From a virus: DNA of 22,411 nt. The stretch is from the IMG/VR virus record IMGVR_UViG_3300030103_001156, positions 1 through 22,411 of that record; one strand, 5' to 3'. Within the stretch, counting starts at the first letter, position 1, and the number at the start of each line of letters is the position of its first letter. The position numbers were made by a program, and so were the translations under genes. Under the pieces are notes generated by a model that worked only from the letters and a program-made list of their open reading frames with translations, ran no database searches and was not told where the DNA came from. This document shows positions 11,801 to 21,140 of this stretch, piece by piece.

Positions 11801-11806
11801 CCCCTT
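11801..11806 (-). promoter_or_regulatory. Shine-Dalgarno AAGGGG for the 10973-11791 gene
   Basis: Read on the minus strand the bases are AAGGGG, nine bases before the ATG at 11791. They overlap the TAA of the coat gene (11807-11805), so translation of the two genes is probably coupled. Confidence 0.55.
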
Positions 11807-12950
11807 ATTCTGTGATTGTGAAGGCAGTGGTAATGAAGTCTTTATTCAAGTTTGCAAAACCAGCATAAAGCTGCCATATAAGAATAATGAATCTTGAGAA
11901 ATCATCATTATTGTTAATTAAAACTTGAGCGTTAGGACCACCGATACCAACACCAATTGCTTGTGGACCAAAGAACAATCCTGCTGGAGTTGTCTTTGAT
12001 ACTGCACCGTTACCATCTCCAATATCGACCGTAATTGTCTTAGATGGGAAGTTTGTAGATTCGAAGAATCTTACTCCTTCAAACACGAATCCAGAAGGCA
12101 TAACTGGTTCACCAGCTACGAACTGAGCTTGTCCATACTGTCCACCAGCATAGATTGCTTGGTTAGGAGCCATAGCACCCATTAAAGGTGAACCTTGACC
12201 CATTCCTGGATATCTTGCTATTTCACGGAAGCCTTGATCGGCTCTTAGATCTTTCATAAATGAAGGATCTGCTATACAACGATAATATCCGTCTGCGAAT
12301 ACAGGTACGTGACGTTTTCTTAGACTCTTAACTACCTCAAGAAGGTCAGTCTTAACATTGAACTTAAATCTTTCAGAAGCATATTCTGTTGCAGAATAAG
12401 CATTCAATGTTGTTGAGTTAGACTTTGTCTTTGTGTTTGGATAGTAATATCCACCCTGTGTATCAGATGAAGCACCACGAGATTCAGATTTGAATAACTC
12501 ATCAATGAATACTCTGTCTCTCCATCTACGGTAATCGTCTAACAAGGTCAACGAACCAATTGATTGATGGAACATGTTTAAGTTTCCAGTATCAAGCAGT
12601 AAACGCTGAGCTGTCATTAGGGTTTCTCTAGCAATTTTGAATGTGCTAGGAAGAGTTGTATTATTAGGGTCAGCAGGACCTGTATATTCCCTAAGAGATA
12701 CAAGCACCTTGTCCTTTACGATAGATCTGCTGTTTGCTGTGCCAATTGTCTGGTCTTGAGTCCTCTCTCTAGAGGTCTTAGTTCCAGGATTGCCAAAGAA
12801 ACGATAGCGATCTAACTGAACGGTCTGACCTGGCTGTTTGGTAAAGTCATGTACAACCACAGGCTCGGAAGCCATTTCTACGATATACGCAGGATGAGGT
12901 CTATATAACTCAGCACCAAGCAGCTTCGGAAAATCGTTATCTATAAACAT
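11805..12950 (-). CDS. Major capsid protein, N4 gp56-like, 381 aa
   Basis: The order of motifs matches phage coat proteins of the N4 gp56 type. Residues about 38-53 carry KQPGQTVQLDRYRFFG, followed by a basic loop and VSLREYTGP. Around 220-245 is the conserved ADGYYRCIADPSFMKDLRAD, then FREIARY. Near 290 are FVFEGVRFFESTNFP and PAGLFFGPQAIGVG, the usual end strands. Length is near the family norm. It is followed by a second high-copy gene and preceded by two small genes and a 123-base leader. GC content is clearly above the neighbours (about 50% in a counted line), with more C-ending codons, as for a protein made in hundreds of copies. No clear Shine-Dalgarno precedes the ATG. Confidence 0.8.
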   Translation of the reverse strand: MFIDNDFPKLLGAELYRPHPAYIVEMASEPVVVHDFTKQPGQTVQLDRYRFFGNPGTKTSRERTQDQTIGTANSRSIVKDKVLVSLREYTGPADPNNTTLPSTFKIARETLMTAQRLLLDTGNLNMFHQSIGSLTLLDDYRRWRDRVFIDELFKSESRGASSDTQGGYYYPNTKTKSNSTTLNAYSATEYASERFKFNVKTDLLEVVKSLRKRHVPVFADGYYRCIADPSFMKDLRADQGFREIARYPGMGQGSPLMGAMAPNQAIYAGGQYGQAQFVAGEPVMPSGFVFEGVRFFESTNFPSKTITVDIGDGNGAVSKTTPAGLFFGPQAIGVGIGGPNAQVLINNNDDFSRFIILIWQLYAGFANLNKDFITTAFTITE

Positions 12951-13298: not shown

Positions 13299-13727
13299 TT
13301 ACTTCTTTCCTTTCTTTGATTCTAAAGGAGGCTGACCTACAGGTAGTTGACTTAATCCAGCTGCTGGTAAATATTGTGCTAAAAACATTTGCTCATTTAC
13401 ACCAATCATATCTTGATTTCTTTCTGCAGCTCTTAGATTCTGAGGAACTAATAAACCATTAGCTGGTAAAGGAGATCCTGGTAAATTTAATTTTAAATAT
13501 GAGGCATCTAAATCAGAAGGCATCTTTGCTCCTTCAACAATTCTTGTATCTCCTTCCTTCATTCTTATATTTGCATATTCATCTCTATTACCAGCCGCAA
13601 CTTGAGACATAGTATCCATACCACCAAATCCTATTAACTGTGGAGAGCCTATAGCACCTCCTGCAGTTCCTATACTCTGTAAAAATTTATCTGCTTTTTC
13701 TGTAGCACTGGCTTTTTTGTGTTTCAT
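13299..13727 (-). CDS. Hypothetical head-region protein, 142 aa
   Basis: No family is recognised. It begins with a basic helix (MKHKKASATEKADKFLQS), followed by glycine-rich IGTAGGAIGSPQLIGFGGM. Then come MSQVAAGNRDEYANIRMKEG, a Leu/Pro-rich part (KLNLPGSPLPANGLLVPQ, NLRAAERNQDMIGVN) and a lysine-rich end (ESKKGKK). It has no membrane helix. It is the first gene after the terminator at 13744-13768 and abuts the next gene directly. The shared MKH opening with that gene and the position between scaffold and coat suggest a minor capsid or internal head protein; this is inference. Confidence 0.6.
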   Translation of the reverse strand: MKHKKASATEKADKFLQSIGTAGGAIGSPQLIGFGGMDTMSQVAAGNRDEYANIRMKEGDTRIVEGAKMPSDLDASYLKLNLPGSPLPANGLLVPQNLRAAERNQDMIGVNEQMFLAQYLPAAGLSQLPVGQPPLESKKGKK

Positions 13728-13777: not shown

Positions 13778-14782
13778 TTATTCCATTACGAGAAGTTTCT
13801 CACGGAATACTTGTGGATTCTGCTGTGCAGCATTTAAGTATCTCCAAGCATTTTGTGGATCTCTATCGGCTGCTCCACCGAAATCTTTCCAGAAGTCCTG
13901 TGAATTTGTAGGAGCTTGTGGCTGTGGAGGAACAGGCATTTGAGGTCTAGCTGGAGCTTGAGCCTGAGCTTGTCCTTGTGCAGCAGCTGGGTTAGGTAGT
14001 TGCTGACCTGCAAAAGTTGGAGCAGCTGGTGCTTCATCTTCTACTGGATAAGGTCCATTCTCTCCAAAGAACTCACATGTATAATCTGCTAAAACATCTG
14101 GATCTGTAAGAATCTTTTCATATGCTTTATGCTCTGTTGACATCTCTTTTAATAAGCCTACTGCTTCTTGTAATTGCTGATTTGTCTGAATTAAAGAATC
14201 TTCAATCTGACAAGCATAGTTATTAAGGATTGCAGGAGCATCTGCACCAAAATGATTAATTACTTCAAGACTTTGCTCGCTTACCCCGTTGGCTAGGAGC
14301 TGGTCGTTGGTTATCTCCTGAGAAGTTTGGGAAGAGTTGTTGGAGTATGCCTGGCTGTTGTTGCTCGAAGGCATATAAGTCTGCTGACCCCCGTTGCTGT
14401 ATGGGGTTGTTTGTTGGTATCCGTAATTGGCTTGGTCGGCTGCTGGAGTCACTGCTGACTGTTGACCCTGGAACGGGAATTGAACTGGTGAACTCAGGAG
14501 TCCCACTACCCTGTTGAATGCGTCCTTGTAAGGGTTCTCCGCTTGTGGAGTTGCCTGCTGTGTCTGGGGCTGATACTGCGTAGGGTTGTATTGGATCCCT
14601 TGTACCCCCATCTGGGCTTGAGCTACTGGAGCTGGAGCCTGTGTTGCCTGTGTTGGGGCTACCCATTGCTGGGAAGTCGCCACGGAAGGAGCTTGGGCTG
14701 CTTGAGGAGCCACGTAGCTGCTCTGCTGGGTCGGGGATGTCTGGGGTGCTGATTGGGTCTGCTGAGCGGTAGCGTCCTGCAT
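13778..14782 (-). CDS. Scaffold-like protein, 334 aa, overlapping the portal gene
   Basis: The N-terminal 172 residues are Gln/Pro/Ala/Ser-rich and disordered-looking (AQQTQSAPQTSPTQQ), with one structured patch (PYKDAFNRVVGLLSSPVQFP). Residues about 175-225 are helical and coiled-coil-like (VINHFGADAPAILNNY, SLIQTNQQLQEAVGLLKEMS). A Pro/Gln-rich linker follows, ending in WKDFGGAADRDPQNAWRYLN and FREKLLVME. An acidic/helical protein of this size between portal and coat is the usual slot of a capsid scaffold. The start is secure: AGAGGT lies five bases before the ATG, and an in-frame TAA sits two codons upstream. The first 518 bases lie inside the portal frame, scaffold being +1 relative to portal. 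A terminator follows the stop. Confidence 0.7.
   Translation of the reverse strand: MQDATAQQTQSAPQTSPTQQSSYVAPQAAQAPSVATSQQWVAPTQATQAPAPVAQAQMGVQGIQYNPTQYQPQTQQATPQAENPYKDAFNRVVGLLSSPVQFPFQGQQSAVTPAADQANYGYQQTTPYSNGGQQTYMPSSNNSQAYSNNSSQTSQEITNDQLLANGVSEQSLEVINHFGADAPAILNNYACQIEDSLIQTNQQLQEAVGLLKEMSTEHKAYEKILTDPDVLADYTCEFFGENGPYPVEDEAPAAPTFAGQQLPNPAAAQGQAQAQAPARPQMPVPPQPQAPTNSQDFWKDFGGAADRDPQNAWRYLNAAQQNPQVFREKLLVME
14265..14782 (-). other. 518-base same-strand dual-coding segment (portal C-terminus / scaffold N-terminus)
   Basis: Both frames stay open through the segment: portal residues 578-749 and scaffold residues 1-172. Scaffold reads +1 relative to portal. GC counted by hand over 14281-14760 is about 55% (266 of 480), against roughly 25-40% in sampled lines elsewhere. 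The portal stop TGA is at 14267-14265. Both encoded segments are low-complexity (Ser/Gly/Pro against Gln/Pro/Ala). Confidence 0.75.
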
Positions 14783-16514
14783 AAGTTACCTCTTTTTGTA
14801 AACTTTCTAATGTTCGATATAAGAATGGAGTTAAGTCCAGTCTGGGGTCAGCTGCCATCGGTAAGTTAGGCTGCTGAGGATGTGGGGTTCGCATTTCCTG
14901 ATTTATTAAGTCAATAAATGCGGAATATGCCCTTTGTACTTCACCTACCATTCTAAACGGAAAACCAGAAAGCATCGCTGCAATTTCGTCGTCAGTTTTT
15001 GAAGGAAATAAGTACTTCAGTGCTTCTATACTATCAACCCCCAATTCTTGAAGGTTTCTAGTGAAGATGGATTGATTGAGTTTATCTTGAGCTGTATCCT
15101 CATAAACAGGACCCATCCATCTCCAAAGAACTGTCCTGTCCCCATCAGGAGCTAGTCCTAATACTCCATCTGGAATTTCTCTTGTTTCTACTGCAGTATC
15201 AATAGCTTGTTGCAGTTTTTGTTCATATTTAATTTTTTGCTTTTCATACTTTTCTAAAGCTTTTGGATCTTCGTCATTTTCTGGTAATTGTGGATATTTT
15301 ATTCCTGAAGTAAAAGCTAAGGATTTTCTGAAAATTTGTTCTTCTTGGAAAATAATTAATTCGAAAACTCTACAAATTCCATACTGGTAAATCTGTAAAC
15401 ATTTTTTCTTAGCTGTCGCACTTACACGACCATAAGCAGATTTAATTTCTGTAGCCGTTACGTTAGTAATACTTAAATCATCTATTCCTCCAAGAGCCAA
15501 TCTAATCTCACTTCTAAGTTGTTCTGAAAATCTAGCTTGATCAGAACTAACAGCATTTGGAGTTATGAATCCTACTCTGTCAGATGGCTCTAAATTAGCG
15601 ATAACTCTTGGAACTCTCATTCCACTACCTGGTCTTCCTGCATACCCTGGCTGTTGTCTTGTTATTGGATCTTGCTTATAAGTAGAACTAAATAGATCAA
15701 CATTTGAAGCAAAACCTGATTGACTAGATATACTTGGTCTTTGTGCTGTTTCAGAGTCGCTTTCTACAATGTCTTGTTTTGGTCTAGATGATAGAAGAGT
15801 TGGATTACCAAAGAATGATAAGTTTGCTCTTATATTTTTTACCATCTCATCATGAGCAGTAATTTGATTAGCAATAAAATCAAACTCTCCTGAACCATCA
15901 GTTCCAAATGCGTCAGGATTATTAAACACTTCAACACATGGAATAAACTCCATCGTATTTTCTACAACTTTTTTATCAAAAGTCGCAAAATTTGTATTTT
16001 CCTGATCAAACTTTATTTCTTGTTCTGCATGATATTCTTCTATTTCTGTAGCAGTAATTTTTAATCTCATATATCTTTTATCTGTATTTAATCCCACTCC
16101 AGAAAAACCCTTTGAAGATTTAACCTTATATGGATAAATAATTACTACTTCCTCTAGCTCCCCTTCAGGAGAATAATATGTTCTATAAGAATCTTTATTA
16201 AACCAATAAATTCTATAAGATTTTTTAGTAGGTCTTATATAAAATAATCCTTTTCCATATGCTAAGAATCTATCCCATATTGCATCTAATCTTGCATCTA
16301 ATTGATTAAACTTTATAACCTGCTGAATAAAATCAAATCTCTGTGTTCCAAAATTATCTTGTTGTGGATAAAACTCAACTCCCTGTCTTATACCAAACAT
16401 CTTCATTTGGGATAAGTGAGAACTGACCAGCATCGTATCAGCTGATCCTTTACCGTCACGAGTAATGACGGACTTAATCATTTCATCAAGAACAGCTTTA
16501 CTATTACTCTCCAT
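14265..16514 (-). CDS. Portal protein with C-terminal extension, 749 aa
   Basis: A head-tail portal forms the ring through which DNA is packaged. Evidence is the position after the large terminase and before scaffold and coat, the length, and motifs. Those are LDARLDAIWDRFLAYGKGLF at about 94-113 with YWFNKDSYRTYYSPEGELEE after it, IPCVEVFNNPDAFG, a helical stem region (ITAHDEMVKNIRANLSFFGN), DLSITNVTATEIKSAYGRVS and a long C-terminal helix (QKIKYEQKLQQAIDTAVETR). Residues 578-749 are a Ser/Gly/Pro-rich, probably disordered extension that overlaps the scaffold gene. Without it the protein would be about 577 residues, a common portal size. AAAGGA eight bases before the ATG is a good ribosome site. 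The family is not more closely named. Confidence 0.8.
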   Translation of the reverse strand: MESNSKAVLDEMIKSVITRDGKGSADTMLVSSHLSQMKMFGIRQGVEFYPQQDNFGTQRFDFIQQVIKFNQLDARLDAIWDRFLAYGKGLFYIRPTKKSYRIYWFNKDSYRTYYSPEGELEEVVIIYPYKVKSSKGFSGVGLNTDKRYMRLKITATEIEEYHAEQEIKFDQENTNFATFDKKVVENTMEFIPCVEVFNNPDAFGTDGSGEFDFIANQITAHDEMVKNIRANLSFFGNPTLLSSRPKQDIVESDSETAQRPSISSQSGFASNVDLFSSTYKQDPITRQQPGYAGRPGSGMRVPRVIANLEPSDRVGFITPNAVSSDQARFSEQLRSEIRLALGGIDDLSITNVTATEIKSAYGRVSATAKKKCLQIYQYGICRVFELIIFQEEQIFRKSLAFTSGIKYPQLPENDEDPKALEKYEKQKIKYEQKLQQAIDTAVETREIPDGVLGLAPDGDRTVLWRWMGPVYEDTAQDKLNQSIFTRNLQELGVDSIEALKYLFPSKTDDEIAAMLSGFPFRMVGEVQRAYSAFIDLINQEMRTPHPQQPNLPMAADPRLDLTPFLYRTLESLQKEVTYAGRYRSADPISTPDIPDPAEQLRGSSSSPSSFRGDFPAMGSPNTGNTGSSSSSSSPDGGTRDPIQPYAVSAPDTAGNSTSGEPLQGRIQQGSGTPEFTSSIPVPGSTVSSDSSSRPSQLRIPTNNPIQQRGSADLYAFEQQQPGILQQLFPNFSGDNQRPAPSQRGKRAKS
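14788..14793 (-). promoter_or_regulatory. Shine-Dalgarno AGAGGT for the scaffold gene, inside the portal gene
   Basis: Read on the minus strand, AGAGGT (with an A-run before it) lies five bases before the ATG at 14782, within portal codons KEVTY. An in-frame TAA sits two codons before the ATG. Together they mark this ATG as the real scaffold start. Confidence 0.7.
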
Positions 16515-16740: not shown

Positions 16741-18264
16741 TCAATACTCTAACTCAAGTTTTCCACGAGTCATTAACCCATTACATAGCCAAACTAAAGC
16801 GTCTACGCAATCATCATGTGAGCTAACCCCAAAATTGACTATCTCATCTGTTAGAGCACCAAACTTACGATACTTATTAAAAATAATTTTTCTTTGTTCA
16901 AAAAGTCCCATAATTCCACGAAATCTTGCAACTTTATCTCCTCGAAAACCTTTTACTGGATGCCAAATCAAATTATATAGACCTTGTTCTGTTTGACATA
17001 TTCTTTTAAAGTCTGCTTCTAAGGAAGCTTGATAGGCAACTGCTTCAGACCATATATGTAATGAAGTTCCTGTAGGGAAATAATTTTTTCCATCTTTCAT
17101 AATTACTCCCCACTCTTCCATCATTTCCATTAAAAGTTCTAATTTTTCTAAATTTCCCATCACCCTAACTCGTTTGCAATCTATAATATGGACTTTATCT
17201 TTTACTCGACCACCCATAACAAAAACTGTATAGTCATTTCTTTCTCTAACTCCAGCAGATAAATCTACTCCGACTCCTAAAGCATCAAAATCTGTAGATA
17301 TAGTTCCCTTAACAATTAAATCTGGAGATAAAGATAATTCACTAGTTTGAACAACTTGATTCTGATATTGAAAACTAAAAGCTACTGGAGCAATTCTTCT
17401 TCTTTGACTTAAATAATCTAAAGACCACATGTCAGGCCAGTATGATATTTCTTCTCCTTCTTTATCTACAGTTATTGCAGATTGTACTATTTGTTTCCAA
17501 CCATTAGCAGGAAGAAAAGTACTACTATGAATATCGTCATGTCTAAACCTAGTTCCTAAACAAATGGCTCTTGCACCTTCAAACATAGTAGGAACAATAA
17601 CGGCATTCCAGTTATCTTCCATAGCTTGGCGAATATCTTTATTTTTAATATCATCAGCACTTTTTATTGCGTCATCAATTATGCAGAGATGAGATCTTTT
17701 TGATGTAACAGCACCTTTTAGTCCTGCACAACAAACACTAAATTCTTCTTCACCAGTAGATTTTATTCCTGCAAACTTCCAATCAATACTCCAATATTCA
17801 TTTGAATTTATTCCTTTAGCAATTTTTACCATAGGAAAAATTTCTTTATAAACTTTACTTTCATCAATTATTCTTTTTATTGCTGCACTCTTTGGTCTAG
17901 CTACATCGACGGTGTATGAAATATATAAAATTTTTAAAGGCATTTTATTTAAAGCATGTATGCCAATAGACCATGCTGTATATAAGCCTAATACGGTAGA
18001 TTTAGCAGATCCTCTAGGAGCCAGTATGTCAATATTGGGACCAGCAATACTTTTTAGACATTCACTATCATCTCCTGTGCAAAGATATTTGTGCCACTCA
18101 AGGTGGTGTTTCGCAGGAGGTTTTCCCCCTACAACATCACAAAAATATGCAAAATTTTTTCTAGCTTTTTCTACATCAACATTAGAAGTTTTCTTAACTA
18201 CTTGTTGTTTTGCAGCTGCCCTGGCTGTACGCCTGTAGACACTGTAAATACTTGTACCTGCCAT
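16741..18264 (-). CDS. Terminase large subunit (ATPase and nuclease), 507 aa
   Basis: The large terminase pumps DNA into the procapsid through the portal and cuts concatemers. The ATPase half shows the Walker A motif APRGSAKST at 82-90, the Walker B LCIIDD at 193-198 and the coupling motif LGTRF at 236-240. The nuclease half shows the expected acidic triad: D334 in GVDLSAG, E408 in WSEAVAYQ and D485 in HDDCVDALVWL. Length is normal for the family. Residues 1-60 (ARKNFAYFCDVV, AKHHLEWHKYL) form the usual N-terminal lead-in. The ATG has no clear Shine-Dalgarno and follows the putative small terminase stop by 24 bases. Every catalytic element is present, so the gene should be functional. Confidence 0.93.
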   Translation of the reverse strand: MAGTSIYSVYRRTARAAAKQQVVKKTSNVDVEKARKNFAYFCDVVGGKPPAKHHLEWHKYLCTGDDSECLKSIAGPNIDILAPRGSAKSTVLGLYTAWSIGIHALNKMPLKILYISYTVDVARPKSAAIKRIIDESKVYKEIFPMVKIAKGINSNEYWSIDWKFAGIKSTGEEEFSVCCAGLKGAVTSKRSHLCIIDDAIKSADDIKNKDIRQAMEDNWNAVIVPTMFEGARAICLGTRFRHDDIHSSTFLPANGWKQIVQSAITVDKEGEEISYWPDMWSLDYLSQRRRIAPVAFSFQYQNQVVQTSELSLSPDLIVKGTISTDFDALGVGVDLSAGVRERNDYTVFVMGGRVKDKVHIIDCKRVRVMGNLEKLELLMEMMEEWGVIMKDGKNYFPTGTSLHIWSEAVAYQASLEADFKRICQTEQGLYNLIWHPVKGFRGDKVARFRGIMGLFEQRKIIFNKYRKFGALTDEIVNFGVSSHDDCVDALVWLCNGLMTRGKLELEY

Positions 18265-20294: not shown

Positions 20295-21086
20295 TTAATA
20301 ATTGTATCTAGCAGTTAGAGCCTGCCCAGCTTGCTGTGCAGCATTCATTCCCATATTAAGTCCAGCTCTCTGCATATTTTCAGTAAGGGCTGCATTTGTA
20401 AGAATATTCTGTTTAATACCAGCACTAGCCATGTCTCTAGCAAAATCATCTCTCTTAGCCTGTTCAGAGAATTTCCTTACTGTAGGAAGAAGTATATTTG
20501 TGGCATCTCTCAATGTCTCAGCATCTTTTACTGATCTTAATCTTCTACCTGCATCTAAACCTAAAGGACTTAGTACACTTAAAGGATCACCCATAGGAGA
20601 TATACCTCCATACGGACCCATTCCTGGAGGTAGTGGAGTACCACCAGCTCCCATTCCTTCTCCTCCTGTTATTCCATATCCACCTAAACTTAATCCAGCT
20701 CTACCAGCAGTACCTGCTCCTCCTCCTAGAAGACCAGCTGTTGATCCTCCTGCAAGTGCTCCTATTCCAAGTGGAACAGCAGCTCTACCTAAAATTCCAG
20801 CAGCCGTAGCCCCGAAACCTTTAGAACCTGCCATTCTTGCTGCCTGTAATCCTGCTTTACCAGCTAAACCTGTTGTCACTCCTCCTAATCCAGCAGTTCC
20901 TAAAGCTCCAAGTCCGCCTCCAACTAAAGCTTGTCCTAAATTTCCACGACTTAAACCTGGTGCTGCTCCAGCTGCTATACCAGCTCCTCTAAGTAATAAA
21001 GGTAATTTGACTGCTCCTACCTTGGCTAGTAGTGGCATTAGTTTTCCTGCTAATGGTATTGCTGCAGCTGCTACTGGTGCTGGCAT
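20295..21086 (-). CDS. Gly/Ala-rich hydrophobic protein, possible ejection/pilot protein, 263 aa
   Basis: The first 140 residues are extremely rich in Gly, Ala and Leu, with several stretches able to cross a membrane (PVAAAAIPLAGKLMPLLAKV, AVPLGIGALAGGSTAGLLGG). A Gly/Pro-rich linker follows (GGTPLPPGMGPYGGISPM), then a charged helical C-terminal third (DAETLRDATNILLPTVRKFS, QAKRDDFARDMASAG). This layout resembles phage proteins that enter the host envelope with the DNA. It lies in the row of unassigned virion genes upstream of the terminase. The complementary strand is also open over the same span because GGN/GCN codons give few stops; that plus-strand frame is not a gene. Function is inferred from composition only. 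Confidence 0.6.
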   Translation of the reverse strand: MPAPVAAAAIPLAGKLMPLLAKVGAVKLPLLLRGAGIAAGAAPGLSRGNLGQALVGGGLGALGTAGLGGVTTGLAGKAGLQAARMAGSKGFGATAAGILGRAAVPLGIGALAGGSTAGLLGGGAGTAGRAGLSLGGYGITGGEGMGAGGTPLPPGMGPYGGISPMGDPLSVLSPLGLDAGRRLRSVKDAETLRDATNILLPTVRKFSEQAKRDDFARDMASAGIKQNILTNAALTENMQRAGLNMGMNAAQQAGQALTARYNY

Positions 21087-21140
21087 TTTATTAATCTAAT
21101 AAATCTTGTTATAAATATTTTAAATTAACTATTCTTTGCT

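Follow-up and report, generated by a model that had tools for sequence, protein, structure and literature searches.

A long out-of-frame overlap of portal and putative scaffold genes is conserved in a group of cyanophage-like viruses

Two head genes that share more than 500 nucleotides

When two head genes of a tailed phage read the same DNA in different frames over more than 500 nucleotides, are two proteins really encoded there, or is one of the frames open merely by accident? In the window, as we call the whole 22,411-nucleotide stretch of viral DNA analyzed here (IMG/VR record IMGVR_UViG_3300030103_001156), the portal gene (14265 to 16514, minus strand; 749 amino acids [aa]) and a putative scaffold gene (13778 to 14782, minus strand; 334 aa), which lies between the portal and major capsid protein genes, overlap by 518 nt (14265 to 14782, minus strand), with the scaffold frame at +1 relative to the portal frame. 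The overlap encodes portal residues 578 to 749 and scaffold residues 1 to 172. An earlier note, made from the letters of the window, had given the same coordinates, lengths, and residue numbers, and the ORF listing and a translation of the window reproduce all of them.

The openness of the portal frame by chance was estimated with the scaffold protein held fixed, the synonymous codons being either drawn from the usage of the overlap itself or permuted. Under these schemes the portal frame of the window is open in 0.9% and 0.3% of draws, respectively; with the portal protein fixed instead, the scaffold frame is open in approximately 40% of synonymous reshuffles. We find the openness of both frames in the window sequence alone only moderately surprising. 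Chance openness is too frequent for a single sequence to prove the case, and significance therefore comes from conservation in relatives, among which both frames are open, kept, and constrained, as befits the genuine dual-coding overlap that the earlier note proposed.

Conservation of the overlap among relatives

Related loci were sampled by viral-contig scans seeded with the window portal, with Synechococcus phage S-EIV1, and with two deep relatives, as well as by a genome-contig scan, yielding approximately 330 loci. The carriers of the overlap form a large group of cyanophage-like viruses, most of them uncultured, of which S-EIV1 (KJ410740) is the sole cultured member found. Where both ORFs are uncut, the overlap is present in 281 of 285 loci, at a length of 440 to 641 nt and invariably in the +1 frame, and the scaffold start codon in these 281 loci is ATG (219) or GTG (62). 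The four exceptions, three with a premature portal stop (L002, L076, and L178) and one with a portal frameshift (L043), look like defects confined to one contig each, since the portal is still alignable beyond the defect and near relatives are intact. A second sample was collected with short DNA patterns from the portal core, and was thus not seeded by the tail, with some contigs common to both samples; it contains the overlap in 164 of 165 loci, the sole exception being the frameshifted contig already met in the first sample.

The overlap is also kept in relatives at 42 to 48% portal identity, and again in the divergent contig L482, in which the portal core is 32% identical to that of the window and the overlap measures 542 nt in the same frame. 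Similarity of the L482 scaffold to the window scaffold is not detectable, and its start occupies the equivalent portal position (K-E-L-A-Y). Viral-contig and genome-contig scans for relatives lacking the overlap found none; a further viral-contig scan seeded with L482 returned only the contig of L482 itself. GC content is 58 to 64% in the overlap versus 42 to 51% in the contigs. For the analyses of selection, codon alignments were prepared for four clades, namely window-like (78 members), S-EIV1-like (72), L166-like (60), and L165-like (69).

An assembly frameshift near position 14780, considered as a trivial cause of the overlap, is ruled out by identical frames in hundreds of contigs. Separately, we observe phage contigs of this lineage (L163 to L170) binned in MAGs titled Bacteroidetes, Euryarchaeota, Crocinitomicaceae, and Blastopirellula, where they are probably contaminant viral contigs.

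The portal protein and its tail

The portal gene (PHROG 20475, head and packaging) is located, as expected, between the genes for the terminase large subunit (16741 to 18264, minus strand; PHROG 38, Pfam Terminase_6C) and the major capsid protein (11805 to 12950, minus strand; 381 aa; PHROG 1357, major head protein). Structure models were built from window and locus sequences, with the S-EIV1 row left out of the alignments. AlphaFold modeled the portal with low confidence (pLDDT 46), and the model gave 17 Foldseek matches at an E value of ≤1e-3, all of which are portals; these fold matches of a low-confidence model support the portal identity. The Pfam match to SPP1_portal is weak and below the cut-off (E value, 0.013), and the portal profile had no match among PDB sequences.

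Residues 1 to 577 make up the conserved core of the portal, and residues 578 to 749 make up the tail encoded by the overlap. Predicted helices stop near residue 580 of the model, and residues 581 to 749 are of very low confidence except for short patches, in agreement with the earlier description of this part as a Ser/Gly/Pro-rich tail, which lies beyond the portal fold and is predicted to be disordered. Tail length is kept at 151 to 213 aa among loci, and two tail motifs are conserved, PIPVPGST and GSADL..QPG.L..LFPN. The protein ends in a basic C-terminal tip (last 14 residues, ...SQRGKRAKS; 14265 to 14309, minus strand, including the stop codon), for which the mean net charge across four clades is +4.9 to +7.3; certain C-clade portal tips carry no charge. 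Of 67 sequences of the window clade, 65 have GTA as the scaffold Val codon over a tip Lys, whereas GTA makes up 39% of the other Val codons of the scaffold, a bias indicating that the free third base of the scaffold codon is set by the portal frame. Conserved scaffold codons may force part of the charge pattern of the tip.

The putative scaffold and its embedded start

No PHROG or Pfam family was obtained for the window scaffold protein, and a family search gave nothing convincing, so its identity rests on gene position and on character (helices, disorder, and composition), and "scaffold" is used here as a putative assignment inferred from these two. The gene sits between those of the portal and the capsid protein, the latter has no evident fused scaffold domain, and the product is predicted to be mostly helical or disordered, and is charged. 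Scaffolding proteins diverge fast, and a family match is supporting rather than strictly defining for them. The low-confidence model of the window protein is disordered to approximately residue 155, except for a helix at residues 84 to 97, and helical afterwards. This predicted helix falls on NPYKDAFNRVVGLL (approximately residues 83 to 96; 14492 to 14533, minus strand), the best conserved of the scaffold elements that the overlap encodes, and the patch PYKDAFNRVVGLL, singled out earlier as structured, indeed proves to be a conserved element (NP[WY]..AF...) among relatives. The non-overlapping remainder of the scaffold is acidic in all clades, with a charge of about -10 to -18.

The scaffold start region reads AAAAAGAGGTAACTTATG in the window. 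Its context is as first described: a Shine-Dalgarno sequence, AGAGGT (14788 to 14793, minus strand), lies within the portal codons K-E-V, 5 nt before an ATG (14780 to 14782, minus strand) placed within the portal Tyr-Ala codons, with an in-frame TAA two codons upstream. Among relatives, the ribosome-binding site and start sit in the portal codons K-E-x-[ST]-Y-[AS]-G, and an in-frame stop is found 1 to 2 codons upstream of the start in 268 of 279 loci. The Shine-Dalgarno sequence is purine-rich (AAGGAG or AAAGAGG), being conserved in most clades and weaker in clade D. In three clades ATG lies over Tyr-Ala, and the Tyr-Ser-Gly clade has GTG one codon later, which means that portal residue and scaffold start codon changed together.

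Mean duplex energies between the Shine-Dalgarno sequence and the anti-Shine-Dalgarno 16S tail range in three clades from -7.1 to -9.4 kcal/mol for the scaffold and from -2.3 to -4.4 kcal/mol for the portal; in clade D the scaffold (-3.8 kcal/mol) is no stronger than the portal (-3.7 kcal/mol). The scaffold start precedes the portal stop by approximately 515 nt, making classic termination-reinitiation impossible. Independent initiation of the scaffold would be the simplest reading of this arrangement, and in three of the four clades we infer an initiation that is separate from, and probably stronger than, that of the portal.

In S-EIV1, whose portal (53 to 55% identity), scaffold, and gene order correspond to those described here, the overlap is 554 nt long. 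The S-EIV1 scaffold gene (L082 6751 to 7728; KJ410740.1 59287 to 60264) begins at the conserved start, 59287, inside the portal gene. GenBank record KJ410740 annotates it from 59863 only (CDS 59863-60264), which corresponds to the last 133 codons, and the overlap is therefore invisible in the annotation.

Selection on the two frames

In the overlap, dN/dS of the portal frame is 0.42 to 0.52 in portal-based alignments and 0.49 to 0.61 in scaffold-based alignments of the four clades, and that of the scaffold frame is 0.21 to 0.35 and 0.26 to 0.34, respectively, as obtained by a pairwise OLGenie-like count (own script) in which substitutions in close pairs, not phylogenetically independent of one another, are classed per frame. 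Every 95% bootstrap interval lies below 1 in each frame. Controls outside the overlap gave 0.66 to 0.95 for the scaffold frame upstream and 1.14 to 1.99 for the portal frame downstream, in the scaffold-only region. Simulations seeded by four real overlaps yielded a portal-frame dN/dS of 0.71 to 1.14 under scaffold-only constraint, a scaffold-frame dN/dS of 0.53 to 1.19 under portal-only constraint, and values of 0.22 to 0.45 (portal frame) and 0.22 to 0.41 (scaffold frame) under two-frame constraint. Of these regimes, constraint on two frames comes closest to the observed values, the portal frame being the less constrained. The overlapping-gene dN/dS test that had been proposed in the earlier note thus reveals constraint in each frame, and these substitution patterns indicate that purifying selection acts on both in all four clades.

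These values bear on the explanation that the scaffold frame alone matters and that the portal tail is unselected read-through, free of stops by chance. Such read-through could well look like this low-complexity, Ser/Gly/Pro-rich, predictedly disordered tail, and constraint on the scaffold frame does exceed that on the portal frame. However, portal-frame values of 0.42 to 0.61 contradict both the scaffold-only region and the scaffold-only simulations, the tail has conserved motifs, a basic tip, and a maintained length, and the synonymous choices of the scaffold are biased toward the portal Lys, so we regard unselected read-through as very unlikely.

Less credible again is the converse, in which the portal frame alone matters in the overlap and the true scaffold starts downstream, as in the S-EIV1 CDS of GenBank. 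That annotation argues for it, as does the ease with which the scaffold frame of the window stays open in reshuffles with the portal fixed. Against a downstream start stand the scaffold-frame values of 0.21 to 0.35 in portal-based alignments, which lie under both the controls and the portal-only simulations, the conserved start with its adjacent in-frame stop and Shine-Dalgarno sequence, the conserved helix NP[WY]..AF, and a scaffold frame that is open in every sampled clade.

Divergence at fourfold sites drops in portal codons at the scaffold start and rises in scaffold codons past the portal stop in the four clades, with steps of varying size. Functional elements of any kind lower synonymous change, and the low rate might in principle reflect an RNA or DNA element, such as a packaging or regulatory site, instead of two proteins. 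However, the constraint covers the entire overlap and shifts at the two coding borders, it is amino-acid-directed in each frame, and overlap length varies among loci at a constant frame relation, which makes a nucleic acid element the least probable of the three alternatives. Two proteins encoded by the same bases remain the reading we prefer: the overlap is very probably an ancient dual-coding segment, in which one head-assembly mRNA has two readings that are both under selection.

A possible role in head assembly

Under this dual-coding reading, ribosomes starting at the portal gene would continue to residue 749, giving the core plus a disordered tail with a basic tip. Other ribosomes would start at the embedded Shine-Dalgarno sequence and ATG or GTG in the last portal core codons and produce the putative scaffold in the +1 frame, the same bases now giving its disordered N-terminal half with the conserved short helix. 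Both proteins would be made, in different amounts, and both are expected to take part in procapsid assembly. Independent initiation and, in three of the four clades, a better ribosome-binding site suggest that the scaffold would be made in excess over the 12 portal subunits. The portal tail may project into the procapsid interior, and direct contact of its basic tip with the acidic scaffold is plausible from the composition of the two sequences.

The earlier note held that a physical link of portal tail to scaffold, or dosage coupling, would follow from the overlap, which by itself implies neither. As an addition to the dual-coding reading, the tail and its basic tip could attract the acidic scaffold and serve to nucleate the procapsid, with the shared DNA keeping the partners co-inherited and co-evolving. 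The charges of the tip (about +5 to +7 in four clades) and of the scaffold remainder are consistent with recruitment, and in P22 the portal and scaffold do form a nucleation complex (PMC12005531). However, the contacts described for P22 are at the portal wing (PMC12005531), and a basic tail could touch packaged DNA instead; we offer this addition tentatively, as possible and on balance unlikely. It is doubtful, in our estimate, that the genes form an interlocked pair in the full sense, whereby one DNA writes both the scaffold-contacting tail of the portal and the N-terminal half of the scaffold, and tail and basic tip nucleate scaffold assembly. Were this true, the assembly partners would be inseparable by recombination and would change together.

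Comparison with known systems

In phiX174 (Microviridae), gene A contains, in another frame, the coding sequence of the internal scaffolding protein B. As in the present lineage, an essential gene thus also encodes a scaffolding protein, on the same strand but in a second frame; the gene overlaps of phiX174 have been reviewed (PMC8227390). The phiX174 overlap belongs to a small ssDNA phage and involves its replication protein, whereas here the lineage is one of tailed dsDNA phages, the overlap is terminal, and the scaffold is paired with the portal, with which it is expected to act in assembly. In lambda, the Nu3 scaffold lies within gene C, in frame, so that the C-terminus is common to both. 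Lambda, also a tailed phage, shares the placement of the scaffold start inside a head gene lying upstream, but Nu3 uses the same frame as C, while the present genes use different frames and have no residues in common.

T7-like phages have the order portal gene 8, scaffold gene 9, capsid gene 10. That order recurs here together with the portal fold, T7 portal structures being among the best Foldseek matches. We know of no long overlap between the T7 portal and scaffold genes, whereas here 440 to 641 nt are in common and the portal has an extra tail of approximately 150 to 210 aa. The P22 portal has a long C-terminal extension past the wing and crown that looks unstructured in the procapsid, and portal and scaffold initiate assembly (PMC12005531). 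The present portal likewise has a C-terminal extension, and it may act with the scaffold at the start of assembly; in contrast, the P22 extension is a helical barrel for which dual coding is not known, and we see no sequence relation between the two.

Across reference virus genomes, one survey puts the median overlap near 16 nt in DNA viruses and at 14 nt for +1 overlaps (PMC8903798). Against such typically tiny overlaps, two head-assembly genes of tailed phages here share approximately 500 nt, down to 32% portal identity. In our literature search, mostly of open-access texts, we met no description of portal and scaffold genes overlapping at length in different frames. Gene overlap as such is familiar; the portal-scaffold pair, and the length and age of its overlap in tailed phages, appear to be new. 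Approximately 280 natural sequences are thereby available for studying how one DNA stretch serves two disordered proteins that are expected to act together. In addition, a portal tail and a scaffold N-terminus specific to this lineage are predicted from the overlap; these are overlooked by current annotation, in S-EIV1 as well.

Origin of the overlap

The earlier note has the portal losing its stop near residue 577 and then extending over the scaffold N-terminus. This history is not borne out: down to 32% identity, we found no relative whose portal frame has a stop there. The same observation counts against an extension that is merely incidental: with no portal ending near residue 577, a constrained portal frame, and assembly error excluded, the extension does not look incidental. 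In codon usage, neither frame of the overlap consistently resembles the remainder of the genes, as expected of an old overlap under heavy constraint. Since no pre-extension relative was found and codon usage is silent on which frame is older, the scaffold could equally have gained its start inside an existing portal tail.

Neighboring genes

For comparison, the window contains a 265-aa antisense ORF (20302 to 21099, plus strand) over nearly all of a 263-aa gene (20295 to 21086, minus strand). It has 2 to 11 stops in 18 relatives and, not being conserved, looks incidental. Between the scaffold and capsid genes lies a gene for a 142-aa protein (13299 to 13727, minus strand) with no PHROG or Pfam match, possibly another head or scaffold factor. 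The terminase large subunit of S-EIV1 (L082 1544 to 4084; 846 aa) contains an intein (Pfam Intein_splicing; E value, 1.4e-11); the window terminase is shorter, at 507 aa, and has no Intein_splicing match. Finally, the apparent major capsid protein gene of S-EIV1 is an intact, GTG-started plus-strand ORF of 383 aa (L082 8323 to 9474; KJ410740.1 60859 to 62010), 72% identical in its product to the window capsid protein; over this ORF, the record places one CDS in antisense (60784-61545) and another, short and on the plus strand (61540-62010).
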